From Xestospongia bergquistia (Eukaryota > Porifera > Demospongiae > Haplosclerida > Petrosiidae), in the NCBI GenBank assembly GCA_963965975.1, contig OZ014424.1, positions 3,844,001-3,908,000 on the forward strand: a stretch of DNA of 64,000 nt. The letters are read 5' to 3'. The notes beneath the pieces are model-generated. The model had not been told where the DNA came from, did not search any database, and saw nothing but the letters and a program-made list of their open reading frames with translations. Shown here piece by piece: positions 11,270 through 52,296 of the stretch. The position numbers were made by a program, and so were the translations under genes. The number at the start of each line of letters is the position of its first letter. Positions within the stretch are counted from its first letter, which is position 1.

Positions 11270-12155
11270 ATAAATAATCATAGTAACATCTGTTAAACTG
11301 TGTCCTAAATATATATAGATATACCTAGTTTGTTTTGATTCCAGTCAGTCAGTTAGAATATGTTTCTACATGTTTACATTATTACTTTTACTAGCAAATA
11401 GATACTAATAACATAATCAATATTTAGTATTCAGCTCTTTCATTGTTAATGTTAAAGGACATATCTTGTTTATGGATCAATTAATTAATTTATAGCTACT
11501 ACATCAAAGGTTGATTAAATATCCTAAATACATTAGGAATGAAATAGTGTGATATACATTATTAGTTTGTATCAAATAACTTTGCTACATACATAAAACC
11601 TGTATAACTATATAAAAAAATCAAAAACTTTAATCAATATAGTCAGTTCTTCAAATGAAAGGTCTTACTCATAATAATTCAATGTATATACTTATTTCTA
11701 ATATATGGCTACTACGACAAAGACTATAGACTATACACTAGTCTCTGTTACACATAAAATATTAGATTTTACTCAAAATAGTCCCATGTATATATATGTT
11801 GTTTAGATAAAATGACAAATAAACTGATAGTGTTGATTTTTGCATTAATTAATATATTTGTCATGAAAAATAACAGCTTGTCTTTATATGAACATTTCCT
11901 AAGAGGCACAATAGTTAGTGCAGATAGGACTTTCCAGTTAATTGTCTATCAAAGATCAAGGAGTGAAGATCTGTGAGTGACCTTATTAATATAGCCATTT
12001 GAATAATTAACAAATATATTCTATCATGAAGAGTACTGTATATGGGTGGTTTTGTAAGCACTACATATTAGAGTGCAATTATATACATATTCAAAGATTG
12101 TAGATCAATATTATTAATAACAGTCATTGTTCCTTGTAGGATATTGTTATAAACA
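11270..12155 (+). promoter_or_regulatory. Upstream block and 5'UTR intron of copy B
   Basis: Shared with the blocks before D, E and G. A conserved non-coding exon ends AAGGAGTGAAGATCT at 11972; GTGAGT at 11973 is a strong donor, and CATTGTTCCTTGTAG ending at 12139 a strong acceptor, giving a 167-nt 5'UTR intron. The second exon starts GATATTGTTATAAACA and reaches the ATG at 12156. Conservation of both sites in four copies supports splicing; the cap site is not visible. Confidence 0.6.
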
Positions 12156-15100
12156 ATGACATCATTTCATAGTACGGTATTGGTTATACTTGTTATTGGT
12201 TATTTAAACTTTATTAAACCACTTTCTACTCATATTGTCCAAATTAATACAAGTAATCAACTTTGGTTCTGGTTATGTAATGATAATATACCACTGCAAA
12301 ATAACTTGACACTTCATTTGACACAAAGTAACTACATACTTCATAACATGACCTTCTGTCTTATTGAAAATGTTAGTAATCTTACATTAAAAGGAGTGGG
12401 ATCTGATGAGAAATCATCAATTAAATGTCAATTACAATATGACTCAACTACTGGTTTTGGCTTTGTCAATATATCCAGTGTTACTTTAGAAAACTTAGAG
12501 TTTACTGGATGTGGAGCAACAATAACAAAGTCAGCTGTGGCATTCTTTAATGACACATACCCACATTTAGGATATAAACAGAAAGCATTACTGGTATTTA
12601 ACCATTGTCACAATATAACATTACAACATGTTAACATCACCAATTATATTGGATATGCTATCTTTATGTTAAATCCTCTCAACTCATCATTAATGAATTG
12701 TGTTAGAGTCACAGCAGGAACAGCTGGTGCTAGTGACTGTACTAATTCTAGTATGTTTGGTTGTGCTGGTAGTGGTATATTTGTAATGTTTAAAGACACT
12801 CAACAAACCTCTCCTGATATGGCACCAGTTAATGTTATATTGTCACATTCTGACCTTCAATTCAATTTCAACAATATACCAAATGTACCTCCCTTGACTC
12901 TTATAGGACATGATATATGTAGTCTTCCTGTGGTTGGTGCTGGTGGTCTAACTGTTTTGTTTAATCAGTCATTTCTGGCTAGATTTTCAAGTCAAAGTAC
13001 ACAGATTGGTTATGGTGTAGGTAATGGTGGAACAGTATCAGGAAATATATTAGTGATATTTTATAATGGTATGGTCAACTCTCAATTGTCACTGAGAGAT
13101 ACTGATATATTCAATGGAATTCTTTTGTCTCCAACTAATCAAATTGGTGGTGCATGTCTTACTATTATCTCAACTTTGTGTCAAACATGTCCTTTTATCA
13201 GTACTAAAGAATTGCCAGTTTGGACACCAATTTCTTTAAATGATGTCCATATGGTAGGTTGTGGTTTTGCAACTAATATGGCAACTGAAGAAATATTTAT
13301 CAAATATGGAGGAGGGTTCTATCTAAACATTTTTGAATTTTGCAGAACTATGTCAATTGTCTTGCTACTTAAAAGAGTGGAATACAGAAAAAACTATGCT
13401 TATAAATCTGGATCTTGTCTTTATGCTTTTGTAACAAACACTGTCTTAAGAGACAACAATATATCTATAATAATAGAAGATGTTGAAATAAGATCAAATC
13501 ATAAAGGTTCTGCTAAAAGGACACTCTATTCTACAATTGCAGGTTTAACATTAATTAATTGGAACAATGTTACATTTAGAGGCAACAGTCGTTTTACTGA
13601 AAATAACTCGCCAATGATTGCAGCATATAACAGTAATATACACATGACAGGACAACTATTGTTTAGAAAGAATACTGGTACCATGGGTGCTGCCATACAA
13701 TTATTTTCTTCATTCCTTATTCTTTATGAACCACTGAATGCTACATTCCTTGACAATAGTGCTTTATTATATGGTGGAGCTATATATGGTGATAATGTAG
13801 TGATCCCTGGTCATCATAGATGTGTTATACAAATTAACACTAACAAAACAGACTTACACAATATAGATATCATATTGAATTTTAAAGGGAACATAGCAGG
13901 ACTTGCAGGAAACAACATTTATGCTACTCCTCTCTACAACTGTTCCTTTCTTTATCCACAACATGATAAGTTTGAATTAGTCCACTTTGACTGGAAATCA
14001 ATTGCACATTTTGGTACATCAAACTCTCTCAGCAATGGACTAAAATCAATGTCTTCTAAACCAGTCAAAATATGCACTTGTCATCTTAACTACAATACAT
14101 ATAAAGTGGTCAAACATTGCTCCCATTCTTATTCTATTCCTAATATCATTAACACATATGCTGGTAAGACAGTAACCATATCATTGTGTGCTGTTGATGA
14201 TTCTGATACCATTGTTTACTCTCCTGCTGTTCTTTCTATCACAAATGATAATCATAAACGAAATGAATTGTCAAAAAACGTATTGTATTTAAAACAAGGA
14301 CAAACACTTGTACCTTTGTCAGGAAGTAACTGTACTCAATTACATTACATTGTCCTTAGTAAACTAGATGAATTCAAACATGGAAGGCTTAATATTGCAA
14401 CACCAGGTAGTCCACCATCTTGGTCAGCTGAACTTTATGTACATCCTTGTCCAATGGGATTTATGTTAAAAGAAGATGAGTGTGTATGTGATAGTTTCAT
14501 TGTTGACATGTCACCCTCTACAAAATGTAATATTACTACAACAACTATTACAATATATTCTGGTCAATGGTTGGGTCATATATCTTCTGACAATAAGAGT
14601 AAGTTGGTATTTGCTTCAGTTTGTCCTCCTGGTAACTGTAAAATTGACACTCTACTATTTAATGTGACAGATCCTTTCTCTATTTGTGAGTCCAATAAGA
14701 TGGGCATTCTCTGTTCACAATGTCAACATAATATGAGTGTTGTATTTGGTAGTACAGAATGCAGAACATGCTCTGATCTGTGGTTAATTACAATAGTAGG
14801 ATATGCTTTATTTGGTCTGCTGTTGGTAGCAACAATGCTTGCATTGCCTCTGACTATATCAGAAGGTCCATTAGCTGGTATCATAATAGTTATGAATGTC
14901 ACTTCTGTTTCAACTATTGACTATTTGGATAGTAACAATTGGTTTGTGTACATTACTAGAGTCTTTGTTTCCTTCATGAACCTTAATCTAGGTTTTCCAA
15001 TGTGTTTGTACAATGGAATGACACCAACTGTTAAAACTGTTATACAATTTGTTTATCCAGTGTACTTGTGGGTTTTGGTAATTGGATTCATCATATTCAG

Positions 15101-15899
15101 TCATTACTCAACTAGAATCTCAAACAGAACAGCAAGCTATTCTGTTCAAGTCCTGGCTAGCCTCATCCACCTCTCCTTCTCCAAAGTTCTCATCACTTGT
15201 ATAGACATCATAGCTTATGTTCCTGTTCATACAGCACAAGAAGGAACAGTGGTAGTGTGGTATGGTGATGGTAATGTTGAATATCTCTCCAGTCCTCAAC
15301 ATATTGTTCTGTTTACTGTAGCTGTGATAAGTTTGTTGTTGTATATAGTACCTTATATATTGTTTGTTACTTTGGGCAGATATTGTATGAGATGGAGATG
15401 TGTAAATAAGTACTTGCGTCCGTTTCTAGAGGCTTTTCAAGGTCCCTACAAACAAGAACAAGGTTATTGGTATGGAGTGAGGATGATAGCTGTTGTATAT
15501 GTCTATTTGATGTGGGCAGTTATTAGAGGATATAATTTTAACCTAATGTTGTTTATGCAACTAACACCAGTTATTATGTTGTGCATCATTCAGGCATTTA
15601 TTAAACCATTCCGTAGTTCCAAGATAAACCATGTTGATACATTTTGTCAAATATTGTCCATATGTCAAATCCTATTTGCACTTGTGTTTGGTGGTAGATA
15701 TTACTGGTTGTCTTTTGTGATGGCTTCATTTAACTACATAATTCTTATTTTATTAATGGTTGTGATTGGATGTCAATGTTTGCAGAAATTGAAATGCAAG
15801 TTAAGAAGAGAAAGAAGCCATGATTGTGGTCATGTGATTATCCCAATGGATGAAGAGGATGATGAGATGAGACAAGCTCTTTTATTACTTACTGATTAA
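12156..15899 (+). CDS. Beta-helix multipass receptor-like protein, copy B (complete)
   Basis: 1247 residues in one exon. Residues 1-24 form a signal peptide. Residues about 70-190 show the V-N-I-S-x-V-T-L-x-N-L-x-F rhythm of a right-handed beta-helix, with many N-x-S/T sites. Pmp-like repeats at about 500-545 (FRKNTGTMGAAI, FLDNSALLYGGAI) precede a Cys-rich stalk (764-790 and 850-873, GILCSQCQHNMSVVFGSTEC). Nine or ten hydrophobic segments span about 876-1207, ending in a tail of about 40 residues (KCKLRRERS then DEEDDEMRQALLLL). The start is fixed by the signal peptide and the acceptor 16 nt upstream. The fold assignment is from pattern only; it is not a canonical 7TM receptor. A surface receptor is the likely role. 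Confidence 0.88.
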   Translation: MTSFHSTVLVILVIGYLNFIKPLSTHIVQINTSNQLWFWLCNDNIPLQNNLTLHLTQSNYILHNMTFCLIENVSNLTLKGVGSDEKSSIKCQLQYDSTTGFGFVNISSVTLENLEFTGCGATITKSAVAFFNDTYPHLGYKQKALLVFNHCHNITLQHVNITNYIGYAIFMLNPLNSSLMNCVRVTAGTAGASDCTNSSMFGCAGSGIFVMFKDTQQTSPDMAPVNVILSHSDLQFNFNNIPNVPPLTLIGHDICSLPVVGAGGLTVLFNQSFLARFSSQSTQIGYGVGNGGTVSGNILVIFYNGMVNSQLSLRDTDIFNGILLSPTNQIGGACLTIISTLCQTCPFISTKELPVWTPISLNDVHMVGCGFATNMATEEIFIKYGGGFYLNIFEFCRTMSIVLLLKRVEYRKNYAYKSGSCLYAFVTNTVLRDNNISIIIEDVEIRSNHKGSAKRTLYSTIAGLTLINWNNVTFRGNSRFTENNSPMIAAYNSNIHMTGQLLFRKNTGTMGAAIQLFSSFLILYEPLNATFLDNSALLYGGAIYGDNVVIPGHHRCVIQINTNKTDLHNIDIILNFKGNIAGLAGNNIYATPLYNCSFLYPQHDKFELVHFDWKSIAHFGTSNSLSNGLKSMSSKPVKICTCHLNYNTYKVVKHCSHSYSIPNIINTYAGKTVTISLCAVDDSDTIVYSPAVLSITNDNHKRNELSKNVLYLKQGQTLVPLSGSNCTQLHYIVLSKLDEFKHGRLNIATPGSPPSWSAELYVHPCPMGFMLKEDECVCDSFIVDMSPSTKCNITTTTITIYSGQWLGHISSDNKSKLVFASVCPPGNCKIDTLLFNVTDPFSICESNKMGILCSQCQHNMSVVFGSTECRTCSDLWLITIVGYALFGLLLVATMLALPLTISEGPLAGIIIVMNVTSVSTIDYLDSNNWFVYITRVFVSFMNLNLGFPMCLYNGMTPTVKTVIQFVYPVYLWVLVIGFIIFSHYSTRISNRTASYSVQVLASLIHLSFSKVLITCIDIIAYVPVHTAQEGTVVVWYGDGNVEYLSSPQHIVLFTVAVISLLLYIVPYILFVTLGRYCMRWRCVNKYLRPFLEAFQGPYKQEQGYWYGVRMIAVVYVYLMWAVIRGYNFNLMLFMQLTPVIMLCIIQAFIKPFRSSKINHVDTFCQILSICQILFALVFGGRYYWLSFVMASFNYIILILLMVVIGCQCLQKLKCKLRRERSHDCGHVIIPMDEEDDEMRQALLLLTD

Positions 15900-23794: not shown

Positions 23795-24100
23795 AGCTAT
23801 TACAGCTATACAAGTGAGCAGTAAGACCACATGTATACCTTTCACCTTGGGTGTATAATAGGGTAGAAGAGGAAGATAATAATGACAGTGCTATTACTGC
23901 TATACAAGTGAGCAGTAAGACCACGCGTACACGTTTCACCTTGGGTGTATAGTAGAGTAGAAGAGGAAGACATTACAGCTGATAATGATAGTGCTATTAC
24001 TGCTATACAATTAAGTGAGCAGTAAGACCACATGTATGCCTTTCAGCTTGGGGGTATAATAGGGTAGAAAAGAAAGATAATAATGACAGTGTTATTACTG
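23795..24100 (+). repeat. Triplicated segment of a hAT transposase relic
   Basis: About three units of 95-110 bp (CTATACAAGTGAGCAGTAAG, TTTCACCTTGGGTGTATA, GTAGAAGAGGAAGA, AATGACAGTGCTATTACTGC). In frame they read as an acidic ED/D-S-A-I-T-A-I linker like the one before the hAT C-terminus, which follows at once. Confidence 0.65.
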
Positions 24101-24440
24101 CTTTACAAGAGTATTTTTACACTAGATGACAACTACCCAATTAGATTTTTGGGTAGAAAATGAAAAGTTATATGCAACTTTAGCACATATGGCTCAGGAT
24201 ATTCTCATTATACCTGTCTCATAAACACCAGTTGAAAGATTTTTTTTCAAAGTTGAGTATGCATCAAGTGGTAGAAGAACCAATTGGTCGGTACAAACTT
24301 AGAGAAAGAAATACTTCTTAAGACAAACAAACAATACTTTTAGTTTAATACTACATGTAACTAAAATTATTCTTAAAGCAGAGAAACAAACTAAAATTAA
24401 TGCTCTTACAGAAAAACTAACTATAACTAACTAAAAGCTA
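24101..24440 (+). mobile_element. hAT transposase C-terminal relic
   Basis: Pieces read WVENEKLYATLAHMAQDILI, TPVERFFFKVEYASSGRR and LKTNKQY, the dimerisation end of hAT transposases, with an in-frame stop. The right flank has AACTAACTATAACTAACTAA as in the 7060-7870 element. It ends about 78 bp before the start codon of the Death/ankyrin gene. Confidence 0.7.
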
Positions 24441-24517
24441 GCATTGGGTTATGGTATTGTCATCAGATACCATATACCACTAAAAAGACCCCTTGTATCA
24501 CTGAAACCCCTGGATGG

Positions 24518-27500
24518 ATGAAGTCACAATTGACATTAGGAGATGAGGGTGGTGGTATTTTGATATTTTCTCTAGTTTTGTTTTTCTTACTTCTCCTCAT
24601 TTTATCAGGAGATATTGAACTTAACCCTGGACCTCAAACAGGTCAGTAAACATTAACACACAACTGATGTCTCATTTATTTCAATAGAATTGACATCAAA
24701 TAATGCTCTACAGCTTCTTGTTAAGAGTGGTTTTGTTGTTAAAGATAAATGGACTGAACTCACTAGTCTTCTAGGTGTATCATTGCAGGAGAGGAGAAGA
24801 CTCAACAAAATGGCCAGCAGTGATCAAGACTTTCACTCTGCTCTAGAGGAAGGTTTATAATGGTGGATTACAAACAGTACTGCTCCCTCTTGGGAAGAAC
24901 TTATCTCAGCAGTTGAAAGTTGTGGTAATGTGGATGTTGCTATTACACTAAGAATACAACTAGATATTAAAGATGAAGGTATCTACAATGTATAGTTCAT
25001 TATAATAATAATCAATGTAGTGTAATATATTTGTAAAGTATATAATAGACATTGAAGCTTTACTCTCAGAAAGTGATGGAAATGGCTTGACAGTTCCTTC
25101 CTTTCTTTAACAAGGGCAAATAAAAAGACAGACAGAAGGAACAAGTGATCAAGCTAGAAGGCCTTCATGTGGTAACTCTGTAGATCTTTCTAGTACCATA
25201 GCAAATGCCAGTGCTACAGAAAATGATGAAGTTCAAAAAATATTGAAGAGTATATTGACAAGTCATTTTGCTGACTTAAGTAACCAGTTAAGTAGATGTT
25301 TATCACGAGTTTCTGCAGCAATGTATTCTAAAAGACTGATAAGCGAATCAGTTAGAGATTCTCCAACTGTTTATAGTGTAATTGGTGAATTTGAAAGTGG
25401 AATGAATTTAGTGAACAATATTTCAAAGTTACAGAAACATTGTCAACTTTTCTTACAATGTCTATCCAGTGAAGGTGGTCCTACTAAATTAGCTGCTCAA
25501 AAGTTATGTCAAGAATGGGTTGATGAAGTCAAAAGGAAATGTGATATCTCACTAGATCTTACATGTGATGATCTTATACAACAGGATATAAAACAACAAG
25601 GTCAGTATTATAAAATGATCAGGCACTTGCATTTTTGAATGAAGCACAAAATATGTGTTGTTCTTTCTTTATGTTATTATAATAAAATTATGTTAGACAT
25701 GTTACAACGAATCCTCATATATCTGGACTTCTTTAATCTGAACTTTTAGATTATCTGAACAAGCTCATGATATTATTTATTCATGAATACATAATAATTA
25801 ATGGATTAATAAAGTCCACATGTTCCAGAACAATGGTTGAAGCTGATCCATACTAGCCAAATTTATTAGTATATCATGATATTGTTTTGATTACTAATAC
25901 ATGATGGAATTAACTGTTCGTGTAGCTAATTGTTAAAACTATGATGATTTTATAAATAGCTAGATCAGATGATGTTTATCTAACTACACAAACTGTCAAT
26001 TCCATAGTATCAGTAATCAAAACAGCATATGTTGTTAATACTTCATTGTATTTGTAGGAATGCATGAAACCTAAGTGACTGTATCAGTTAAAACAACTAT
26101 TTAATAGTGAATATAAAACCATTGGTATGTGTATATATGTATATATATACATACATATACACTGTATTTCCTTCATTAAATGCCTATATACTTCAAATAA
26201 ATGCCAGCCTTGAATAAACACCTGGAGCAAACACAAGTATTGTGCAAATAAACCCTACCCTGAATAAATGCCAGGTCTAGATTCAAATTACCCTGCTTTT
26301 TGTAAGTAGTGTAACCTTGACTAGTCATTTTACAAAGTGGGCGGGGTAGTAAACCATGTGCAAATCTTCTGAAAGAAATGAACACCTGCCATATTTAATG
26401 TCAGGTGGAAAATGGTTTGTTTTGATGCTTTTGGTATCCTTTATAAGTTGTTAATTTAGGCTAAACAAGGACTCTGTTTCATTAGTGCTTTCCATTTATG
26501 TAGGGATTAATTATCAAGAAATAACAGTTACTCCGGACTATCCTGTAGCTGAAAAATTGAAGAGTCTTCACAAAGAATATAATGATTTAGTTAAAAATAT
26601 TAAAAATGCCCTACGTAAACTAATTGATAATGGAAGACTTGAACTTATTGATATTTCTGATTATCTTGGAGAATATTTTAGAATAGAAGGATTAACAGAT
26701 TCTACAGATATTCCAAATCTATTTCAGCGACTTTGGCCATATTACAGCTACCTTGATGTTGAGGTATTAGAAGTTATCATTGACAATGATGACTTCCTAA
26801 TTGATGAGAGGATACAGAATGACATTTGTACTTATAAACAGCATCTTGAAGAATTTAAGCAATCAACAACACTTGAAAAATTCAAGAACGCAGTTGAAGA
26901 AGCATTGATACCAAATCCAGAAGTCACATTAATTACTTGTGAAGTGGTTATCAAACTTAATCGTGAATGGGGAAAAAAAACGTTGGAGAATTTCAAAACA
27001 CTAATTAACTACATGTTTCATCAAAGAATGACTCATATACGAGTGGAGGAAGGGTCATTATGTGTAACTCTACTTGTACTTCGATCGAGATTAGACTACA
27101 TCTTAGAAATTGCCACTCTAAAAAAATTAATGATTTTGCATTACTTTTTGGTATCTTTGAACTGACTATTGATGATCGACCTATCTTGAAAGAGAAAGAA
27201 GAAACTCATTTTTCTTTTGACCAAGCATTTCAAGAGGCTTCAAGACTTGGCAATAATGAAGCTGTTCAGTTCTTACTTAACTTATTTGATAGTATTAATT
27301 TTCAAAGCAAAGAGAGCAGTACAGCACTTATGCTAGCTAGTAAAGGTGGACATGAACAAGTTGTACAAACACTAATATCAGCTGGAGCTAATCCTAACAT
27401 TCAAGATAACACTGGCTATACTGCATTGATGCTAGCATGTGATACAAACTCCTACACTATAGTCAACTGCCTACTCCAGACTGGAGCTAATCCTGATATA

Positions 27501-30500
27501 CAAAGAAATGATGGAGATACAGCTATCATAATAGCATGTCGAAATAATCACTCTGATATTGTGAAGTTATTACTTCAATTTAATGCTGATCCACTTATTA
27601 CTACAAGAAATGATGATACAGCTCTCACTGTATCTGTACATGTAAACTCCATCGAGATAGTGGAAATGTTACTTGATAAACTGCTAGAGAGCCAGAAATC
27701 AAGTTTAGTGGTAACAGCTCTCACTACAGCATGTCAATATGGACACTCTCAACTTATTATCAGTTTATTAGTCCACTTACTAGACTATTTTACACAAGAG
27801 GAATTCCAACTTTTCATATTGTGTGCTGAAGGAGATTACATTTCTACAGCAACTCATATTTTTGACTCTACTGTTGATGTCAACTGTACACTAGTCAATG
27901 ATATCACTCCTCTTATGATAGCCTCATCTTGTGGACATATAGAGACAGCAGAAGTCCTCTTACAAGGTGGAGCTAATGTCAACAGTACAGACAGTGATGG
28001 GTACAGTCCACTAGTATATGCTATAACAGGACACAAGTCACTTCAAGTTATAGAACAACTACTTAAAGCTGGTGCTCAGTCTAATGTCTTCATTAATGAC
28101 CAGAGTATTGTTGATGAAGTAAGAAAAGAAGGAAGAGAACATATCTCTAAATTGTTACAACAGTTTAATGTTTTCAATATAACAGAAAAAGAAAAGGGGG
28201 AGGAACAACAGTTACAGATCTCTAGTGAATGTTTGATCATCTCTATTATTGAGGCTGCAAAAATAGGCAATACTGAGATGGTTAAATCACTACTCAAAAA
28301 GAATGCAGATGTTAATATTCAGTCTACAATTGGTGAAACTGCCTTAATGCTAGCTAGTCAATATGGTCATGCCCAGGTTGTCGAACTACTACTCAAAGAG
28401 AAAGCAGATGTTAATATTCAAAAAGAAGATCAATGGACTGCACTAATGCTAGCTAGTCGAAATGGTTGTACCCAGGTTGTTGAGCTGTTACTCAAAGAAA
28501 ATGCAGATGTTAATATTCAGTCTACAATTGGTGAAACTGCCTTAATGGTAGCTAGTCAATATGGTCATACCCAGGTTGTTAAACTACTACTCAAAGAGAA
28601 TGCAGATGTCAATATTCAAAAAGAAGACCAATGGACTGCATTAATGCTAGCTAGCCGAAATGGTCAAACCAAGGTTGTTGAGCTGTTACTCAAAGAGAAT
28701 ACAGATGTTAACATTCAGTCTACAATTGGTGAAACTGCCTTAATGCTAGCTAGTCAATATGGTCGTACCCCAGTTGTTGAACTACTACTCAAAGAGAATG
28801 CAGATGTTAATATTCAAAAAGAAGATCAATGGACTGCACTAATGCTAGCTAGTCGAAATGATCGTAACAAGGTTGTTGAGCTGTTACTCAAAGAGAATGC
28901 AGATGTTAATATTCAGTCTACAATTGGTGAAACTGCCTTAATGCTAGCTAGTCAATATGGTCGTATCCAGGTTGTTGAACTACTACTCAAAGGGAATGCA
29001 GATGTTAATATTCAAAAAGAAGATCAATGGACTGCCTTAATGCTGGTTAGTCGAATTGGTCATACCAATGTTGTTGAACTACTACTCAAAGCGAATGCAG
29101 ATGTTAATATTCAGTCTACGATTGGTGAAACCGCCTTAATGCTAGCTAGTCAATATGGTCATACTCAGGTTGTTGAACTACTACTCAAAGAGAATGCAGA
29201 TGTTAATATTCAAAAAGAAGATCAATGGACTGCACTAATGTTGGCTAGTCGAAATGATCGTATCAAGGCTGTTGAGCTGTTACTCAAAGAGAATGCAGAT
29301 GTTAGTATTCAGTCTACAAATGGTGAAACTGCCTTAATGCTTGCTAGTCAATATGGTCATATCCAGGTTGCTGAACTATTACTTAAAGAGAATGCAGATG
29401 TTAATATTCAAAAAGAAGATCAATGGACTGCACTAATGCTAGCTAGTCAAAACGGTCATACCCAGGTTGTTGAACTACTACTCAAAGAGAATGCAGATGT
29501 TAATATTCAAAAAGAAGATCGATGGACTGCCTTAATGCTAGTTAGTAGAAATGGTCATACCAAGGTTGTTGAACTACTACTCAAAGAGAATGCAGATGTT
29601 AATATTCAGTCTACAATTGGTGAAACTGCCTTAATGCTAGCTAGTCAATATGGTCATACCCAGGTTGTTGAACTACTGCTCAAAGAGAATGCAGATGTTA
29701 ATATTCGGTCTACGATTGGTGAAACTGCCTTAATGGTAGCTAGTCAATATGGTCATACCCAGGTTGTTGAACTACTACTCAAAGAGAATGCAGATGTTAA
29801 TCTTCAAAAAGAAGATGGATGGACTGCCTTAATGCTAGTTAGTCGAAATGGCCATTCCAAGGTTGTTGAACTACTACTCAAAGAGAATGCAGATGTTAAT
29901 ATTCAGTCTACAATTGGTGAAACTGCCTTAATGCTAGCTAGTCAATATGGTCATACCCAGGTTGTTGAACTACTACTCAAAGAGAATGCAGATGTTAATA
30001 TTCGGTCTACAATTGGTGAAACTGCCTTAATACTTGCTAGTCAATATGGTCATACCCAGGTTGTTGAATCAATACTCAAAGAAAATGCAGATGTTAATAT
30101 TCAGGATGAATATGGATGGACTGCCCTAATGCTAGCTAGCCAAAATGGTCATACTGGTGTTGTTGGACAACTACTCAAAGAGAATGCAAATGTTGATATT
30201 CAGTCTACAATTGGTGGAACTGCATTAATGCTAGCTAGTCAATATGGTCATACCCAGGTTGTTGAACTACTACTCAAAGAAAATGCAAATGTTAATATTC
30301 AGAATGAATATGGGTGGACTGCCCTAATAATGGCTAGTCTAGGTGATCATACAGAAGTTGCTGAACTATTACTCAAAAAGAATGCAGATGTTAATATTCA
30401 GAGCACAAATGGAGTGACTGCCTTAATGGTAGCTATTTTGAATGCAAATCTTGAATTAGTTGAATACTTACTACAATCAAAAGCAGATCCTCATATAGTA

Positions 30501-31322
30501 GTATATTTTGAAGGGTTTGAAATAACAGCATTGTCATTAGCAATTGTTTCTGGTAAAAGAGATATCGCTAAGATGCTCATTGACAAAATTGAACCCACTA
30601 CTAATGAGTTTGAAAAAAATGTAGTAACATCATGTTATTTTGGTGACCTTACTCTAATTACCTTCCTCTCAAACAAACTTCCACACTTCACTAATTATCA
30701 GAGAGAACTACTAGACTCATGTATTAATGGAGTTTTACATACAGTTGCATGGAAGGCATTAGATAGTCCAGATACTCCACTGGTATGTGATGTCACTCCA
30801 CTCATGGTAGCTTCATCATGTGGACATGTTGATATAGTGGATGCTCTCATACAAGCTGGAGCTGATGTTAATAAAGAAGAAAGTTATTGGGGGTTAACTC
30901 CTTTATACTTTGCAATATCTGGTGGACAATCCACTTCGATAGTAGAGATGCTCTTAAAGAATGATGCTAATCCTAATGTTATTGTTAACAATGAAACTCC
31001 GTTAGATGTAGCTAATAAGACTGAGCAGGAAACAATCATTGAGCTATTAATTAAATATGGAGGTAAAACAGCATCACAAGCATCTAATGAAACAATGAAC
31101 ATACCTACGTCTTCACTAACAACCAGTGAATTGACAAATGAAGTTAACAAGAAACAGACAAACAGAAATAGATTGCCAAATTTGGAGTCCATTAATTTAT
31201 TCACTTCACACATCTTAAATCGTACTCATACATTTAGAGATACCAGTGCAAAACAAGAAAAAATAAAACAAGACAACAAGGAAAAAGGTCAAGAAGATTA
31301 TCTTATTCCAATTACATCCTAA
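24518..31322 (+). CDS. 2A-leader, Death domain, ankyrin-repeat protein (two lesions)
   Basis: Exon 1 (24518-24641) encodes a 41-residue leader: hydrophobic GILIFSLVLFFLLLLILS, then GDIELNPGP. A 46-nt intron leads to exon 2 (24688-24978), a Death domain (DKWTELTSLLGVSLQERRRL ... SWEELISAVESCGNVDVAI) with an in-frame TAA at 24858. Intron 2 is 24979-25114; the pyrimidine-rich acceptor at 25114 keeps phase and skips a TAA at 25108, while an acceptor at 25048 would include it. Exon 3 (25115-25600) and, after a 903-nt intron, exon 4 (26504-31322) encode helical linkers I cannot name, then more than 30 ankyrin repeats and a polar tail. A shift in the T run near 27145 breaks the frame; a 44-nt intron at 27151-27194 is a weaker explanation. 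All introns are phase 1. A cytosolic adaptor or innate sensor is inferred. Damaged gene, allele error or recent pseudogene. Confidence 0.7.
24608..24634 (+). other. 2A-type ribosome-skipping motif
   Basis: Residues 31-39 of the leader read GDIELNPGP, an exact fit to the D-x-E-x-N-P-G-P 2A consensus, directly after a Leu-rich hydrophobic helix. In known 2A peptides the ribosome skips the Gly-Pro bond, releasing the upstream part and restarting with Pro. Here skipping would separate the leader (38 residues) from the Death/ankyrin body. Confidence 0.85.
25880..26029. mobile_element. MITE in intron 3 of the Death/ankyrin gene
   Basis: ATTGTTTTGATTACTAATAC...GTAG and CTAC...GTAATCAAAACAGCAT form imperfect inverted termini of about 45 bp around a 50-bp core. 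Confidence 0.75.
26128..26330. repeat. TA-rich tract and AATAAATGCC-type repeat
   Basis: TATATGTATATATATACATA at 26128-26160 is followed by three or four diverged TGAATAAAYGCCNGG words. Intronic. Confidence 0.5.
28323..30401 (+). repeat. Array of 21 near-identical 99-bp ankyrin units
   Basis: Exactly 21 units of 33 codons. Two types alternate: A (STIGETALMLASQYGH...) and B (KEDQWTALMLASRNG...), each ending VVELLLKENADVNIQ. Order ABABABABABABBAABAABAB: a 198-bp dimer for the first twelve units, then breaks. Near-identity at the DNA level contrasts with diverged ankyrin repeats on both sides. Consensus ankyrin positions (TALM, A, G, LL, GA/NADVN) are kept. Confidence 0.9.
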
Positions 31323-31475
31323 TATGGTGTGTATTTTTTTGTTTATATTTTTTATGCACTTTTTTCGTCCCTTTTAAATAGCCTTGTATTATCATTTAGA
31401 AATGATGTTATTACCATCTATTTTATTTGTATTTTTTTTTTCCGGTAAAGATAACTAAATATTACATTTAAATCT

Positions 31476-31481
31476 AATAAA
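31476..31481 (+). terminator. Candidate poly(A) signal of the Death/ankyrin gene
   Basis: AATAAA about 155 bp after the stop at 31322, in T-rich DNA. Consensus only. Confidence 0.45.
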
Positions 31482-31662
31482 ATTATTTACTTGTTTGCAA
31501 TATTTTCAAGTAGAAAAAGGACACCTGTCATAGCTCACAACAGAATATCATATAAATGTAACTATAACTAATGACTAATCCTATTGGTAATGTGTTATTT
31601 ACTAATACATTTTGATAGGTAATGCTACAGTGTTTGTCACATGTATATAATATTTCGCTTAC

Positions 31663-31815
31663 TTGATATAAATTCTGAAGCTCAGACACTTTTCTTGTCA
31701 AGGACTCAATCTGAGACTCCAATCTGCCTTGATCCTAAGCTAAACTAGCTCCTTGACTAGCTAGTTTTTGACACCAAAGTTTTCGTTCTTCATGAAGACC
31801 CTTAACAAGACACTG
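31663..31815 (-). pseudogene. Orphan coiled-coil exon
   Basis: The minus strand reads YQCLVKGLHEERKLWCQKLA, then a stop, then DQGRLESQIESLTRKVSELQ, ending TATCAA|GTAAGC at 31662, a good phase-0 donor. The heptad pattern and E/K/Q content indicate a coiled coil. The in-frame TAG and the position right at the truncation point of receptor fragment C suggest a fragment of an unrelated gene cut by the rearrangement. Parent gene not identified. Confidence 0.5.
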
Positions 31816-31829
31816 ATAACTTAGTGAAT

Positions 31830-32316
31830 AGACCATTTCTAGAGGCTTTTCAAGGTCCCTACAAACAAGGACAAGGTTACTGGTATGGAGTGAAGATGAT
31901 AACTGTTGTATATGTCTATTTGATGGGGGCAGTTTTTAGAGGATATAATTTTAACCTAATGTTGTTTTTGCAACTAACACCAGTTATTATATTGAGCATC
32001 ATTCAGGCATCTTTTAAACCATTTTGTAGTTTCTGGCTAAACCATGTTGATACATTTTGTCTGCTATTGTCCATATGTCAAATTCAGTCAGCTGTTGTGT
32101 TTGGTGGTAGGTATACTGGTTGTCTTTCGTGATGGCTTCATTTAACTACATAATTCTTATTTTATTAATGGACGTGATTGAATGTCAATGCTGGCAGAAA
32201 TTGCAATGCAAGTTGAGAAGAGAAAGAAGCCATGATCGTGGTCATGGTCATGTGATTATCCCATCACTGAAGAGGATGATGAGATAAGACAAGCTCTTTT
32301 ATTACTTACAGATTAA
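31830..32316 (+). pseudogene. Receptor copy C, 3' fragment
   Basis: Starts abruptly at CCATTTCTAGAGGC, equivalent to residue about 1088 of copy B, and covers the last membrane segments and tail. One base is missing near 32114 (GGTAGGTATACTGG) and another near 32269, so the tail is out of frame. Same strand and downstream block as the other units. The fragment has no start of its own. Confidence 0.8.
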
Positions 32317-34230
32317 GTTTAGTCATATCCTCAGTTATACGTATTAGAAAGTTTGTATGTAATTTTGTAGTTTAGATATAATAATGATTTGTTTGGAGTT
32401 TTGTAAAACAAATTCATGAGTGACCTAGTTCCTTATGCAGTTACACGATCCCTACAATTACAAGTTCAGTATGCAGACAAAGTCCTCTTTTGTGAAGCTG
32501 GTCCAGTTATTACTAAAGTTTACATTGAGGATATTTGACCAGATGCAATAAATCTGTATGTTTTTATACTGATGACTAGAAATGTCTTGATGTCTGTCTT
32601 ATGCATCTAAGGGTCTCCGTGTTGTTGCAATATTCTAAGGTCATCATGGAGTCTTTGTGACACCATCTCATTGAGCTATCAAAGCAGTCCTTAAATAAGG
32701 TGGCTATTTTGGCCTATTACATTCACAGAATCTAACAATCGTTATGCTTAGGATTAAAGCATACATTTTGTATGCTTTAAGAATGATACATCATTTCTAC
32801 AACTCTTGAAGCTATTGATCTATTCATAACCCACCATTTTGGTAATCAATATTCTACATGTAAAATGCTTATAAAAATGCTTCTATGTAGATTTTTTGAG
32901 TCATATACATGGCCAAGTCCTGCAGGCATTAGAATATTTACGTTCCTCCTAATGTTTTTATGAAACTCTTTACTTCTATCTCTTATAATTGGCATTAATT
33001 AATAAAGACGTTGATGCAAAGAATTGAATGCATTAAAGACAAACAATATATAAGTGGATATGTTTAATGAGAGATCAGTAAATTGACTCCCTTTATGACT
33101 ACACTGTTTCATGTATGTAGATAACCTTGATGGTATCAAGAAGATACACTAATTACTTCTTCAGTGATATGATACAACATTTGACTGAATCATAGTTACC
33201 ATGCCAAGCATCAAAAGATATCGCTGTTCATGTGGAGTGGAATCTATCCAACTAATGTAATGGGTATAACAAATCTTGTGAAGGGAAAGAAATTGCTATT
33301 AGTTGGCAAGGTTTTGATAAATAATATTTGCATCAAAAACTTTACCTTTGCAAACCAAAGTCTGAATCTGGTGTAACCCATCTAATGTGGAGCTTAAATA
33401 TATAAGTAAAGATAATGCTTTATGGTAATAGTGCTAAGACTGGAGAGATAATTCTTTAAAGCCATCTTCAGACAGTCTTATTGGTCAAAATATAGTTTAC
33501 ACATTTGTGTTAGACCAGGAGAAAGGCACATTTAATTCAAAGCCTTGTCCAGATCTTGAGCAATCTTGCAGTATCCGTGTCATCTGTTGTTACCTCTGAA
33601 AGTGGAAAGTCTACCAAAGGTTTTGAGTATAATGAAAATGGCATAGAAATGATGATACAGTCTGATATAGCAACAACACATTGACGATACCTTCTCAGGA
33701 TGACACCTTCATTGGATTAATGAAGCTTGTTATTCTTGTTGTGACTCAAAAAGGTGAAAGCAATAATGTTGATATTATAAGAAAGCTTAGATCTGGAGCA
33801 AGGAAATATGGTTCTTACTTTTGTTACTGTTTTCCTCAAAGAGAATCCAACTATGGAAAGTGAGGCTAAACTTAATCTACCAAAGAAAGATAAGATGTAG
33901 ATGACGCTTCAAAGAGACATGTACACGTTGAAGAGAATGTCAGCAACTTAAAATAAATATATAACTAAAGAAATGTTTCAATTGTATTTTGTCTACAAAT
34001 ATTTTTTGTAACTGTCTAAAACTTTACAGGTTGTTGAATTTTATTTGGCATATAAAGATAAGAGGAACAATACTTAGTTCAATAAGATTTCTTACTTAAA
34101 TTTGACAACTTCTCAACAGCCATTCCTGTAACTACTAACTTTGAGAGTACTCAGTTTATATATCATGTACCATAGTTGTTATAGACCAACCATACAGTGT
34201 TCTTAATGTAGTTACTGACTAACATCAATA
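32317..34230 (+). pseudogene. Methyltransferase relic block after copy C
   Basis: Remnants in order: DKVLFCEAGPVITKVYIEDI (32478), DDKKCLDVCL, then GVFVTPSH and AIKAVLK (32650-32690), PPFW (32830), ITFANQ (33340-33357), then a longer tail including 33690-33860 that I do not recognise. It ends near the TAACATCAATATGGC word at 34225. Stops and indels throughout. The best-preserved GVFVTPSH segment among the relics supports the tetrapyrrole-methylase reading. Confidence 0.6.
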
Positions 34231-36880: not shown

Positions 36881-36999
36881 TTAAATAAGTTGTATTTTGC
36901 AAGCACTACATTTTTAGGTACAATTGATACATACATATAGGTTTTAGATCATAATTAATTGATAAGCCATTGTTCCTTGTAGGATATTATTATTAAAAA

Positions 37000-39900
37000 A
37001 TGGCATCATTTCATAGTATAATATTGGTTATGCTTGTAACTGCTCTTTTAAACTTTATTAAACTACTTTCTACTCATATTGTCCAAATTAATACAAGTAA
37101 TCAACTTTGGTTCTGGTTATGTAGTGATAGTATACCACTGCAGAATAATTTGACACTTCATTTGACACAAAGTAACTACATACTTCATAACATGACCTTC
37201 TGTCTTATTGAAAATGTTAGTAATCTTACATTAAAAGGAATGGGATCTGATGGGAAATCATCAATTAAATGTCAATTACAACATGGCTCAACTACTGGTT
37301 TTGGCTTTGTCAATATATCCAATGTTACTTTAGAAAACTTAGAGTTTACTGGATGTGGAGCAACAATAACAAAGTCAGCTGTGGCATTCTTTAATGACAC
37401 CCACCCACATTTAGGATATAAACAGAAAGCATTACTGGTATTTAACCATTGTCACAATATAACAATACAACATGTTAACATCACCAATTATATTGGATAT
37501 GCTATCTTTATGTTAAATCCTCTTAACTCATCATTAATGAATCATATTATAGTCACAGCAGGAACACCTGGTACTAGCGACTGTACTAATTCTGATATGT
37601 TTACTTGTGTTGGTAGTGGTATATTTGTAATGTTTAAAGACACTCAACAAACCTCTCCTAATATGGCAACTGTTAATGTTATATTGTCAGATTCTAATGT
37701 TCGATTCAACTTCAACAATATACCAAATGTACCTCCCTTGACTCTTATAGGACATGATATATGTAGTCTTCCTTTAGTTGGTGCTGGTGGTCTAACAGTA
37801 TTGTTCAATCAGTCATTTCTGGCTAGATTTTCAAGTCAAAGTACACATATTGGTTATGGTGTAGGTAATGGTGGAACAGTAACAGGAAATATATTAGTGA
37901 TATTTTATAATGGTATGGTTAACTCTCAATTGTCACTGACAGATACTGATATATTCAATGGAATTCTTTTGTCTTCAACTAATCAAATTGGTGGTGCATG
38001 TCTTACTATTATCTCAACTTTGTGTCAAACATGTCCTTTTATCAGTACTAAAGAATTGCCAGTTTGGACACCAATTTCTTTAAAAGATGTCCAGATGGTA
38101 GGTTGTGGTTTTGCATCTAGTATGGCTACTGAAGAAATGTTTATCAAATATGGAGGAGGATTCTATTTAAACATTTTTGAATTTTGTGGGGCTAGATCAA
38201 TTGTCGTTCTACTCAAAAGAGTACAATACAAAAAAAACTATGCTTACAAATCTGGATCTTGTCTTTATGCTTTTGTAACAAACTCTGTCATAAGAGACAA
38301 CAATATATCTATAATAATAGAAGATGTTGACATAAGATCAAATTTTAAAGGTTCTGCTAAAAGGACACTCTATTCTACAGTTGCAGGTTTAACATTAATT
38401 AATTGGAACAATGTTACATTTAGAGGCAACAGCCAGTTTACTGAAAATAACTCGCCAATGATTGCAGCATATAACAGTAATATACACATGACAGGACAAC
38501 TATTGTTTAGAAAGAATACTGGTACAATGGGAGCTGCCATACAATTATTTTCTTCATTCCTTATTCTTCATGAACCACTGAATGCTACATTCCTTGACAA
38601 TAGTGCTTTATTATATGGTGGAGCTATATATGGTGATAATGTTGTGATCCCTGGTCATCATAGATGTGTAATACAAATTAACACTAACAAAACAGACCTA
38701 TACAATATAGACATCATATTGAAATTTAAAGGGAACATAGCAGGACTTGCAGGAAACAACATTTATGCTACTCCTCTCTACAACTGTTCCTTTCTTTATC
38801 CACAACACGATAAGTCTGAATTAGTCAACTTTAACTGGAAATCAATTGCACATTTTGATACACCAAACTCTCTCAACAATGGACTGAAACCAATGTCTTC
38901 TCAACCGGTCAAAATATGCTCTTGTTATCATAACCACAATACAAATAAATTGGTCAAAAACTGCTCTCATTCGTATGCTATTCCTAATGTCATTAACACA
39001 TATGCTGGTAAGACAGTAACCATATCATTGTGTGCTGTTGATGATTCTGATACCATTGTTTACTCTCCTGCTGTTCTTTCTATCACAAATTATCACAATA
39101 AACAAGATAAATTGTCAAAAAATGTATTGTATTTAAAACAAGGACAAACACTTGTACCTTTGTCAGGAAGTAACTGTACTCAAATCCATTACAATGTCCT
39201 TAGTAAACTAGATGAACTCAAACATGGAAGGCTTAACATTGCAACACCAGGTAGTCCACCATCTTGGTCAGCTGAACTTTATGTACATCCTTGTCCAATG
39301 GGATTCATGTTAAAAGGAGATGAGTGTGTATGTGATAGTTTTATTGTTGACATGTCATCCTCTACAAAATGTAATATTACTACAACAACTATTACAATAT
39401 ATTCTGGTCAATGGTTGGGTCATATATCTTCTGACAATAAAAGTAAATTGGGATTTGCCTCAGTTTGTCCTCCTGGTAACTGTAAAATTGACACTCTACT
39501 ATTTAATGTGACAGATCATTTCTCTCTTTGTGAGTCCAATAAGATGGGCATTCTCTGTTCACAATGTCAACATAATATGAGTGTTGTATTTGGTAGTACA
39601 GAATGTAGACCATGCTCTGATCTGTGGTTAATTACAATAGTAGGATATGCTTTATTTGGTCTGCTACTGGTAGTAGTAATGCTTGCATTACCTCTGACTA
39701 TATCAGAAGGACCATTAGGTGGTATCATTATAGTTATGAATATCACTTCTGTTTCAACTATTGACTATTTGGATAGTAACAATTGGTTTGTGTACACTGC
39801 TAGAGTCTTTGTCTCCCTCATGAACCTTAATCTAGGTTTTCCAATGTGTTTATACAATGGAATGACACCAACTGTTAAAACTGTTATACAATTTGTTTAT

Positions 39901-40743
39901 CCAATATACTTGTGTGTTTTGATAATTGGATTCATCATATTCAGTCATTACTCAACTAGAATCTCAAACAGAACAGCACATTATTCTGTTCAAGTCCTGG
40001 CTAGTCTCATCCACCTCTCCTTCTCCAAAGTTCTCATCACTTGTATAGACATCATAGCTTATGTTCCTGTTCATACAGCACAAGAAGGAACAGTGGTAGT
40101 GTGGTATGGTGATGGTAATGTTGAATATCTCTCCAGTCCTCAACATATTGTTCTGTTTACTGTAGCTGTGATAAGTTTGATGTTGTATATAGTACCTTAC
40201 ATATTTTTTGTTACTTTGGGTAGATATTGTATGAGATGGAGATGTGTAAATAAGTACTTGCGTCCATTTCTAGAGGCTTTTCAAGGTCCCTACAAGCAAG
40301 AACAAGGTTACTGGTATGGAGTGAGGATGATAACTGTTGTATATGTCTATTTGATGTGGGCAGTTATTAGAGGATATAATTTTAACCTAATGTTGTTCAT
40401 GCAAGTAACACCAGTTATTATATTGTGCATCATTCAGGCATCTCTTAAACCATTTCGTAGTTTCTGGCTAAACCATATTGATACATTTTGTCTAATATTG
40501 TCCATATGTCAAATTCAGTCAGCTCTTGAGTTTGGTGGTAGGTATTACTGGTTGTCTTTTGTGATAGCTTCATTTAACTACATAATTCTTATTTTATTAA
40601 TGGTTGTGATTGAATGTCAATGTTGGCAGAAATTGAAATGCAAGTTGAGAAGAGAAAGAAGCCATGATGGTGGTCATGTGATTATCCCATCTCATGAAGG
40701 ATACGATGACATGAGACAAGCTCTTTTATTACTTGCTGATTAA
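37000..40743 (+). CDS. Beta-helix multipass receptor-like protein, copy D (complete)
   Basis: 1247 residues, single exon, same length as copy B and very similar. The signal peptide (MASFHSIILVMLVTALLNF) sits 17 nt after the conserved 5'UTR acceptor. Ectodomain, Cys-rich stalk, nine to ten membrane segments and tail are all present. Differences from B cluster in short ectodomain stretches, for example HIIVTAGTPGTSDCTNSDMF (about 178-197), MVGCGFASSMATEEMF and CSCYHNHNTNKLVKNCS. The tail varies too: HEGYDDMRQALLLLAD replaces the DEEDDE cluster. No lesion visible; likely functional. Family function unknown. Confidence 0.88.
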   Translation: MASFHSIILVMLVTALLNFIKLLSTHIVQINTSNQLWFWLCSDSIPLQNNLTLHLTQSNYILHNMTFCLIENVSNLTLKGMGSDGKSSIKCQLQHGSTTGFGFVNISNVTLENLEFTGCGATITKSAVAFFNDTHPHLGYKQKALLVFNHCHNITIQHVNITNYIGYAIFMLNPLNSSLMNHIIVTAGTPGTSDCTNSDMFTCVGSGIFVMFKDTQQTSPNMATVNVILSDSNVRFNFNNIPNVPPLTLIGHDICSLPLVGAGGLTVLFNQSFLARFSSQSTHIGYGVGNGGTVTGNILVIFYNGMVNSQLSLTDTDIFNGILLSSTNQIGGACLTIISTLCQTCPFISTKELPVWTPISLKDVQMVGCGFASSMATEEMFIKYGGGFYLNIFEFCGARSIVVLLKRVQYKKNYAYKSGSCLYAFVTNSVIRDNNISIIIEDVDIRSNFKGSAKRTLYSTVAGLTLINWNNVTFRGNSQFTENNSPMIAAYNSNIHMTGQLLFRKNTGTMGAAIQLFSSFLILHEPLNATFLDNSALLYGGAIYGDNVVIPGHHRCVIQINTNKTDLYNIDIILKFKGNIAGLAGNNIYATPLYNCSFLYPQHDKSELVNFNWKSIAHFDTPNSLNNGLKPMSSQPVKICSCYHNHNTNKLVKNCSHSYAIPNVINTYAGKTVTISLCAVDDSDTIVYSPAVLSITNYHNKQDKLSKNVLYLKQGQTLVPLSGSNCTQIHYNVLSKLDELKHGRLNIATPGSPPSWSAELYVHPCPMGFMLKGDECVCDSFIVDMSSSTKCNITTTTITIYSGQWLGHISSDNKSKLGFASVCPPGNCKIDTLLFNVTDHFSLCESNKMGILCSQCQHNMSVVFGSTECRPCSDLWLITIVGYALFGLLLVVVMLALPLTISEGPLGGIIIVMNITSVSTIDYLDSNNWFVYTARVFVSLMNLNLGFPMCLYNGMTPTVKTVIQFVYPIYLCVLIIGFIIFSHYSTRISNRTAHYSVQVLASLIHLSFSKVLITCIDIIAYVPVHTAQEGTVVVWYGDGNVEYLSSPQHIVLFTVAVISLMLYIVPYIFFVTLGRYCMRWRCVNKYLRPFLEAFQGPYKQEQGYWYGVRMITVVYVYLMWAVIRGYNFNLMLFMQVTPVIILCIIQASLKPFRSFWLNHIDTFCLILSICQIQSALEFGGRYYWLSFVIASFNYIILILLMVVIECQCWQKLKCKLRRERSHDGGHVIIPSHEGYDDMRQALLLLAD

Positions 40744-46789: not shown

Positions 46790-48581
46790 ATTAATGATTA
46801 ATAACATACACTTAATAACTCTGCCAAGGTACCCATTAAATCCTGTATATGTCTATGATTATGAAATAATCATATGTAAGTGATCTCTCTCTTCTTCATA
46901 ATCTAAAGACAATACATGTATGAAAAAAGGAACAATAATATGAGAGAACAATAGCATACTGCTTTTTCAATAGTCCAATGCAACATCAGTGTTGAGGTAA
47001 TGTCCATGAGCTTTATTGACTGTATAAATGATATGCTAGTCATGTTGTGATCATTGTACCATTGTAGCAATAGATCGCACATTATTGAAACTAGAGAAGG
47101 TGATATACATAGTATATAACTCACACACACACAGTAGTAATGAAGTTTAAGTTACATAAACTAAACTAAATTATGCTACCTTTATTCTTGTATCTTTCAC
47201 ATCAGTGCAATTATAAAAATGAACACAGTAACTAACCTAAAGATTGGAACACCTACCTATTGACAAATGTAGTTGATGAGTTCATCACACTGCAATCTGT
47301 CAACCTGTGACTTTCAGTGACTAAATAACTTTGTTTTGATGGTTAGGAAGTGTATGTTGTATTAGTAAGTTAGTTATTAATATTTGATGTTTCCCATGTT
47401 TTTTGGACTAATTATTGTTATAAAAATATACTCCTTTTCTTAAACACATCATATATCTCACTCACACTCTATTAATTAATTTACAGCTACTACAACAAAT
47501 AATAAAGACTATACACTAGTCTATGTTATATATAAAATATTAGACTATACTCAAAATAATCTCATGTATATGTATGTCTTTACATGCTCCTCATATTGTC
47601 ATTCATGTGAGTAGTTACAAGTTGTATCTATTATCTACATGATTAATACATCTAATAATAATATCTGTATAACTGTGTATTGATTTCAGTACTATGTCTA
47701 TACATGTTAACATTATAACTGACAGGTTGTTGTCATATATAGCAGATGTTTACTGATGAATTAAATAGAACATAAACAATATTTCTAATTATAGTAACAT
47801 CTGTATAACTGTGTCCAAAATATATGTAGATGTGTCTAGTTTGTTTTAATTCCAGTCTGTCAGTTGGATTATTTCTAGAACTCTACTGTTAACACATTAT
47901 AGTTGACTGGTTGTTGTGATAGCAGATGTTTATTGATAACTTAAATAGAATATAACATTTCTAATCACAGTAACATCTGTATAAGTCCTAAATATATGTG
48001 TTTATATTCCAATATGTCAGTTTGACTATATCTCTACATGTTTACCTGATAAGTCAGTACATAGCTTTGGATCACTTAGTTAATTTATAGTTACTACAAC
48101 AAATATTATAGACTATACACTAGTTTATGTTACATATAAAATATTAGACTTTATTTGAAATAATCTTATGTATATATATGCCTTAACATGTTGTTTAGAT
48201 AAAATGACAAATAAACTGATAGTGTTGTCTTTAGCATTAATTAACATATTTTGTCATAAATATATTTACTAACAGCTTGTTTTTATATCAAAAAATTTTT
48301 TAAAGGCTCACTAGCTGCATGCAGACAGAAATTCAAATTAATTATCTATCAAAGATCAAGGAGCGAAGATTTGTGAGTGAATTTATTAATATAGCTATTG
48401 AGTTTCATATAAACAATCAATAATCATATTCTGACATGAAGAGTAACATATATTATATATACATTGGCTTTATTTTATAAGCACTAGATTCTTAGAAGGT
48501 AGTTGTATACACACATGTAGGTTTTAAGTCAATATTATTTAATAATACTCATTGTTCCTTATAGGATATTGTCATTAAACA
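46790..48581 (+). promoter_or_regulatory. Upstream block and 5'UTR intron of copy E
   Basis: Collinear with 34795-36999. Contains the tandem repeat (47600-48070), donor GTGAGT at 48373 and acceptor ATTGTTCCTTATAG ending at 48564 (192-nt 5'UTR intron), then the ATG at 48582. Confidence 0.6.
47600..48070. repeat. About 175-bp tandem repeat upstream of copy E
   Basis: Same units as at 8700-9180 and 35760-36230. Confidence 0.65.
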
Positions 48582-51500: not shown

Positions 51501-52296
51501 ATTATTCAACTAGAATCTCAAACAGAACAGCAAGTTATTCTGTTCAAGTCCTGGCTAGTCTCATCCACCTCTCCTTCTCCAAACTTCTCATCACTTGTAT
51601 AGACATCATAGCTTATGTTCCTGTTCATACAACACAAGAAGGAACAGTGGTAGTGTGGTATGGTGATGGTAATGTAGAATATCTCTCCAGTCCTCAACAT
51701 ATTGTTCTGTTTACTGTAGCTGTGATAAGTTTGATGTTGTATATAGTACCTTATATATTGTTTGTTAGTTTGGGTAGATATTGTTTGAGATGGAGATGTG
51801 TAAATAAATACTTGCGTCCATTTCTAGAGGCTTTTCAAGGTCCTTACAAACAAGGACAAGGTTACTGGTATGGAGTGAGGATGATAGCTGTTGTATATGT
51901 CTATTTGATGTGGGCAGTTATTAGAGGATATAATTTTAACCTAATGTTGTTCATGCAAGTAACACCAGTTATAATATTTTGCATCATTCAGACATCTCTT
52001 AAACCATTTCGTAGTTCCTGTTTAAACTATATAGACACATTTTGTCTGGTATTGTCTATATGTCAAATTCAGTCAGCTCTTGTGTTTGGTGGTAGATATT
52101 ACTGGTTATCTTTTGTGATTGCTTCATTTAACTACATAATTTTACTTTATTAATGGGTGTGATTGGATGTCAATGTTGGCAGAAATTGAACAGCAAGTTA
52201 AGAAGAGAAAGAAGCCATAGTCATGGTCATGTAATTATCCCATCAGATGAAGAGAATGATGAGATGAGACAAGCTCTTTTATTACTTACTGATTAA
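48582..52296 (+). pseudogene. Receptor copy E, four frameshifts
   Basis: Full-length homologue of copies B and D with start, signal peptide, ectodomain, membrane region and tail, but broken by a 1-bp loss near 49229 (CAACAACC for CAACAAACC), a 2-bp loss after 50490, a 4-bp loss near 51369 (GTCTTTCCC for GTCTTTGTTTCCC) and a 1-bp loss near 52145. Segments between them are open and well conserved, so the damage is recent or an assembly error. An in-frame four-codon loss near 50808 is tolerated. Variable segments are of the A type (DANITFSYKGAA). Confidence 0.8.

Follow-up and report, generated by a model that had tools for sequence, protein, structure and literature searches.

A predicted StopGo element ends a leader exon repeated on Death-, NACHT- and ankyrin-type genes of the sponge Xestospongia bergquistia

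Introduction

What is a putative ribosome-skipping signal doing in front of a Death domain in a sponge? In the 64,000 nucleotides of Xestospongia bergquistia DNA analysed here (contig OZ014424.1, positions 3,844,001 to 3,908,000, forward strand; hereafter the window), the translation of 24611-24634 reads DIELNPGP and follows a Leu-rich helix. Such 2A (StopGo) elements have been described chiefly in viruses and in sea urchins, and Li et al. 2026 (PMC12846837) describe StopGo as rare in cellular genes. In the sea urchin Strongylocentrotus purpuratus, 2A-like sequences are reported in 85 of 241 NLRs (SpNLR2A; Roulston et al. 2016, PMC4981915). In reporters expressed in mammalian and plant cells, wild-type SpNLR2A6 skips, and most of its P3A mutant ends up in the Golgi (PMC4981915).

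We think it probable that the sponge feature is the StopGo terminus of a portable leader exon, which would leave a cytosolic receptor when skipped and direct it to membranes when fused, and that the copy in the window is broken. In intact members, the ribosome would make a membrane-prone leader of approximately 73 residues that is released at NPG, and would then resume at Pro to give a free cytosolic receptor (Death-ankyrin, Death-NACHT or CARD-like-NACHT). The non-skipping fraction would keep the hydrophobic leader and go to membranes, as for sea-urchin NLRs; by analogy with those, dual targeting is the best model. The motif, its layout, the family, the downstream domains, the conservation and the lesions described below are read from the genome sequence itself.

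Results

The 2A motif and the exons around it

Upstream of the motif, LLLLILSG precedes the Asp, with Gly at p11 and Asp at p12, which in a by-eye comparison fits the active upstream class as described in PMC12846837; DIELNPGP itself (24611-24634) matches the core (D/G/C/N)(V/I)ExNPGP. The complete element, SG-DIELNPGP, occupies 24605..24634 (+) and is of the LLLLSG-type upstream class of the same source, with skipping predicted between the Gly and the last Pro. A search of all six frames of the window returned no second NPGP. The initial annotation had called an exact 2A at the leader end, and the call holds: genome-wide, the degenerate pattern DxExNPGP finds 154 sites, compared to 0 for the reversed-pattern control, so that chance is not the explanation. 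The motif is preceded by the hydrophobic stretch ILIFSLVLFFLLLLIL (24557..24604, +). The ORF in which both were first noticed (24518..24641, +; translation MKSQLTLGDEGGGILIFSLVLFFLLLLILSGDIELNPGPQT) has a Kyte-Doolittle 19-residue maximum of 2.87 and begins at an internal Met. Extended upstream, 24437..24641 (+) is a leader-exon remnant, ..ASIGLWYCHQIPYTTKKTPCITETPGWMKSQ..NPGPQT downstream of an in-frame stop, in which residues 6-76 of the family leader query are matched with 1 TAA inside.

Behind the leader, a GT-AG intron of 46 nt and phase 1 is predicted at 24642..24687 (+) from sequence only, with the donor AG/GTCAGT at 24641/24642 and the acceptor TTTCAATAG/AATTG at 24687/24688. It is followed by the Death-domain exon (24688..24978, +), which is broken in the window copy, and by a probable third exon (25111..25600, +) coding for a domain common to other Death-ankyrin copies. 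No Pfam family scores above its cut-off for this domain, and its 16-21% identity to the CARD-like exons of NLR paralogues is a hint only. An N-terminal part and a long ankyrin array then extend over 26455..31322 (+), in two frames in the window and as one 1620-aa stop-to-stop ORF in a near-identical twin copy. The window gene is of the Death-ankyrin type, and no NACHT was seen at it. The window also holds units of a tandem family of approximately 4 kb (5-2989, 12153-15899, 36997-40743, 48579-52153, 57399-59126, and 62930-64000). Two of these have intact 1248-aa ORFs with, by eye, a long ectodomain-like part, a Cys-rich stretch and several C-terminal hydrophobic segments; the only Pfam hit of this family is DUF1137, under its cut-off.

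The first reading of exon 2 as a Death domain stands in part. A Death-like exon is indeed present at 24688-24978; an in-frame TAA at 24858-24860 had been missed, and the 57 residues before this stop give no Pfam match up to E = 1. The exon of the twin reaches 21.3 bits with Pfam Death, just under the cut-off of 22.6. Two paralogue exons pass it (22.7 and 24.8 bits), another has 21.3 bits and one is without a match, and Death-type exons of further members have 17.8 bits, 13.9 bits or no match. Several members thus have little or no Pfam support. Run against the PDB, a profile built from 11 relatives matches the Death domains of PIDD (7e-4) and FADD (0.02) along most of the domain. At the level of sequence profiles, the Death-fold match is made by the family; the broken window exon on its own gives none.

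A leader family in more than 100 copies

Two narrower patterns (62 + 91 sites) list 153 of the 154 DxExNPGP sites, and (V/I/M)ExNPGP with other x residues adds 10 sites compared to 1 in the control. Two groups of three (V/I)ESNPGP sites each lie at C1:10.94-11.10 Mb and C7:5.98-6.00 Mb. A 76-aa leader query gave 193 candidates, of which 150 places were scored; 133 of the 150 are near full length (from query residue 1-3 through 74 or beyond), and 128 of these 133 are stop-free. At 20 of the 153 2A sites, there was no match to the leader. An upstream Met together with a WRxx(I/V)G block was present in 73 of 99 fetched sites, yielding 71 distinct leaders with a median Met-to-NPGP length of 74 aa; the 26 sites dropped (12 without the Met, 14 without the block) were lost partly through short fetched sequence. 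The consensus leader, approximately 74 aa long, is MIDxxQWRxxIGLW...hydrophobic...SGDIELNPGP. By these sequence matches, the genome carries more than 100 copies of the leader, and immune-receptor genes account for many of them.

The exact 2A is kept in 124 of the 128 stop-free near-full-length leaders, compared to 1 of the 5 with stops (Fisher p = 3e-5); one of the four stop-free exceptions, at C1:2163794, reads VERNPGP. Among the 71 distinct leaders, the 2A core has a dN/dS of 0.10 and the SG one of 0.13; the N-terminal block (0.24) and the hydrophobic stretch (0.28) follow, and the linker reaches 0.75. Since these leaders were collected by a 2A pattern, the invariance of NPGP within this set is circular; the test on stop-free leaders is less biased, even if the 2A was part of its query as well. 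W7, R8 and G12 are invariant in 71/71 leaders, which is again partly circular because they were in the regular expression that collected the 71.

All 71 leaders have a hydrophobic stretch, with 19-aa hydropathy maxima of 1.73-3.17 that start at residues 35-52 (median 49). The Leu-rich helix had been suggested as a possible signal peptide. Its start near residue 11 holds only in the ORF starting at 24518, whereas in the full leader the stretch begins around residue 49, which would make the leader a less typical signal peptide. A donor GT lies 7 nt past the 2A codons, in phase 1, in 85 of the 99 fetched sites, the window included (mostly KT-G/GT); in a C8 group of five further sites, it lies one codon earlier. 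With such a phase-1 end so soon after the 2A, the leader exon would be joinable to different adaptor exons. Just upstream of the family ATG, loci L011, L027 and L028 read TTGTTTGTAG followed by GTCATT or GCCATT; this could be a 5'UTR splice acceptor, in which case another exon may precede the leader exon.

The conservation of the N-terminal block MIDxxQWRxxIGLW suggests that the leader has a job beyond the 2A. It is possible, if on balance unlikely, that the StopGo serves only to detach the leader and that the peptide is a product of its own, a small membrane peptide made 1:1 with the receptor, with no dual targeting. The low dN/dS of the block and the 133 near-full-length copies that match from residue 1-3 onwards fit such a product. 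However, this reading would require the leader to be stable once released, and in the sea urchin a fused leader can target (PMC4981915).

What the leader precedes

The occurrence of this leader on other Death, NLR and ankyrin genes, proposed as a check by the initial annotation, is borne out genome-wide. Of the 153 2A sites, at least 65 have a Death exon in the 1.3 kb downstream (usually 45-70 nt away) and at least 48 have a NACHT in the 6 kb downstream; for at least 88 of the 153, there is a Death exon and/or a NACHT. In 500 rotations of the sites, at most 4 (Death) and 5 (NACHT) were obtained. Conversely, an exact 2A site is upstream of 70 of 76 Death-exon matches and missing for 6, among those listed (76 rows among the 150 listed of 173 matches). 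One Death locus without an exact 2A, L014, has an ORF that matches the hAT transposase at its cut-off.

For NACHT, 47 of 95 matches, a lower bound (at least 95 in the genome), have a same-strand 2A site within 6 kb upstream. Within that distance, an exact 2A site is lacking for the remaining 48 of 95, among them every one of the 29 on C2, so the leader is not a general requirement of NLRs. The cluster of 29 NACHT matches without an upstream 2A at C2:8.83-9.15 Mb is a natural comparison group.

Pfam identified ankyrin arrays in all five loci scanned for them (L011, L015, L026 and L028 on C14 and L025 on C1) and NACHT in L012, L013, L016, L020 and L022. With our own profiles, 98 fetched sites (the window left out) contain 65 Death-type exons and 1 CARD-like exon, the latter, at L048, with 18.4 bits under the CARD cut-off of 23.9. 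The three profiles found no Death or CARD exon at the other 32 of the 98, where often only 600-800 nt downstream were covered, and some of these show another helical exon before the NACHT. At L030, a WRxxIG-2A leader is followed by a TPR exon. In the leader tree, close leaders within one clade precede different adaptor exons (labels set by hand; L017_8537 is labelled Death yet carries the other helical exon). This pattern suggests that the leader exon has been exchanged among adaptor exons.

A single leader on several receptor classes would also give them common control. The leader-2A might then be a sensor of the translation state, with stalling or failure at the 2A lowering or redirecting receptor output; Roulston et al. 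(PMC4981915) postulate that the 2A outcome is regulated via eEF2 and stress. The sensor proposal is purely inferential, and we regard it as improbable.

The copy in the window, a probable pseudogene of recent origin

The twin (L009, C14:3931001) is approximately 99% identical to the window copy, and its 2A is 63 kb downstream of that of the window. Collinear blastn blocks pair L009 1-375 with window 24062-24436 and L009 833-8815 with window 24436-32423. The junction at 24436..24437 (+) thus marks a deletion of 457 bp in the window (L009 376-832) that takes away the upstream region, the family ATG and the MIDISQWR codons. In the twin, this family start is 35 codons upstream of the position equivalent to 24518, and the family start codon is read in L009, L011, L013, L016, L020, L027 and L028. 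We therefore rejected 24518, which had been taken as the leader start, as the true one: the family start lies upstream, and that Met is mostly Ile or Val in the listed paralogues.

Two further lesions follow. The TAA at 24858..24860 (+) splits the Death exon and is CAA in the twin; it is derived in the window copy, as the outgroup copy L015 has C at this site; a regular expression matched 39 other Death exons, and 38 of them have CAA. A 5-bp insertion relative to the twin at 27124..27128 (+) shifts the ankyrin frame; the outgroup gives no match there, so the change is not polarised. In total, the copies differ over 6.9 kb by 38 substitutions (including the CAA>TAA) and one further 2-bp indel, and the twin retains an open 112-aa Death frame and the 1620-aa ankyrin ORF. 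Changes derived in the window copy are 10 non-synonymous and 4 synonymous, compared to 8 and 7 in the twin, numbers too small to support a claim of relaxed selection; within the exon-2 frame, those at 24940 and 24955 are both non-synonymous.

The window copy has neither the family start codon nor an open frame. With the start deleted, a nonsense codon and a frameshift, it is most likely a pseudogene, a recent broken duplicate that is probably silent, and the proposal that a skipping switch controls this particular Death/ankyrin gene is not supported. Part of the damage could be assembly error, since single-base and 5-bp differences can be errors. That the stop and frameshift are both errors of assembly or sequencing and the gene works is nevertheless very improbable: there are three lesions, one of them a clean 457-bp deletion, within an otherwise near-identical copy, and the stop is derived relative to the outgroup.

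A retrotransposon origin finds little footing

The initial annotation had named, as the finding that would count against it, a leader that belongs only to a retrotransposon ORF. We give almost no credence to the leader being part of such an ORF, or inert transposon remains next to immune genes. Non-LTR retrotransposons can carry 2A elements (PMC11512398), and a separate group in this genome has a 2A and then a PHD finger, but the three PHD-type sites read (L034, L036 and L102) lack the WRxxIG leader. Reverse transcriptase (RT) matches show no enrichment around the 2A sites: for the 150 scored of 1023 RT candidates, 2 of the 153 sites have one within 8 kb, compared to 2.5 expected by chance. 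The register from leader to Death exon is near constant at mostly 45-70 nt, and purifying selection acts on the 2A core. In the leader family itself, no linkage to the 150 scored RT matches or to a PHD-type ORF was found; ankyrin or NACHT ORFs lie downstream instead.

The PHD-type sites (L102 at C4:8614254, L034 and L036), in which the PHD finger follows the 2A directly, look transposon-like. Ten 2A motif sites are located at C4:8.60-8.91 Mb, of which one was read. In viral contigs, 98 pattern stretches turned up, and none was confirmed as a relative.

Discussion

The observation that prompted this study was partly confirmed, and its interpretation is partly supported: the 2A motif and its placement on a Death-type family are real. 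For intact family members, transcription, splicing, skipping and targeting are what we infer from the genome. Extending the proposal, a single StopGo leader exon, exchangeable between genes and bearing the conserved N-terminal block, might, on about a hundred Death/CARD-like, NACHT and ankyrin genes, constitute a common gate that sets how much of each receptor is in the cytosol or at membranes, possibly tuned by translation stress; we put this forward tentatively and consider it doubtful. If it were true, some "transmembrane NLRs" reported in sponges could be unskipped gene models. Sponge NLR architectures with transmembrane domains were reported in 2026 (PMC12909245), and their transmembrane segments may be leaders of this kind; the main text of that paper contains none of the terms 2A-like, ribosome skipping, StopGo or NPGP.

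In the texts accessible to our literature search, we recognised no description of 2A leaders in sponges; one paper that contains both "2A-like" and Amphimedon uses the former in a gene name. Rao et al. 2025 (Cell Rep) reportedly survey 2A across eukaryotes and viruses, and leaders of this type may already be described there. One leader in front of 47 of 95 NACHT matches (at least 95) and 70 of the 76 listed Death-exon matches would be a second, broader natural case beside the sea urchin, and its many natural variants offer material for testing the role of a leader-2A on immune receptors.

Besides the sponge NLRs, three known systems invite comparison. APE-type non-LTR retrotransposons have a 2A in a transposon ORF (Odon et al. 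2013, cited in PMC11512398), and the PHD-type 2A sites of this genome look like such elements; the Death/NACHT family has a different leader, and no RT linkage was found. With the viral L-rich, LLLLSG-like StopGo (Li et al. 2026, PMC12846837), the sponge leaders have in common the L-rich stretch, Gly at p11, Asp at p12 and (V/I)ExNPGP. Their L-rich upstream type resembles viral motif 6, the wild type of which is active in the assay of that study. Unlike the viral elements, the sponge set is a cellular multigene family with N-terminal placement, and x in ExNPGP is mostly Leu (67/71), whereas PMC12846837 associates this motif type with Ser.

The parallel with the sea urchin was already drawn when the locus was first described, and it agrees with the leaders published in PMC4981915. 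SpNLR2A and the sponge family both have a hydrophobic N-terminal leader that ends in a 2A before Death-NACHT receptors, both exist in many copies, and in both the leader sits on NLR genes (in the sponge, the fraction of NACHT matches given above). The sponge leader is longer, at approximately 74 aa compared to 26 aa as described for the sea urchin, and its hydrophobic stretch comes late, at a median of residue 49. It further differs in the conserved block MIDxxQWRxxIGLW, in the predicted phase-1 exon end and in being found on Death-ankyrin genes as well.
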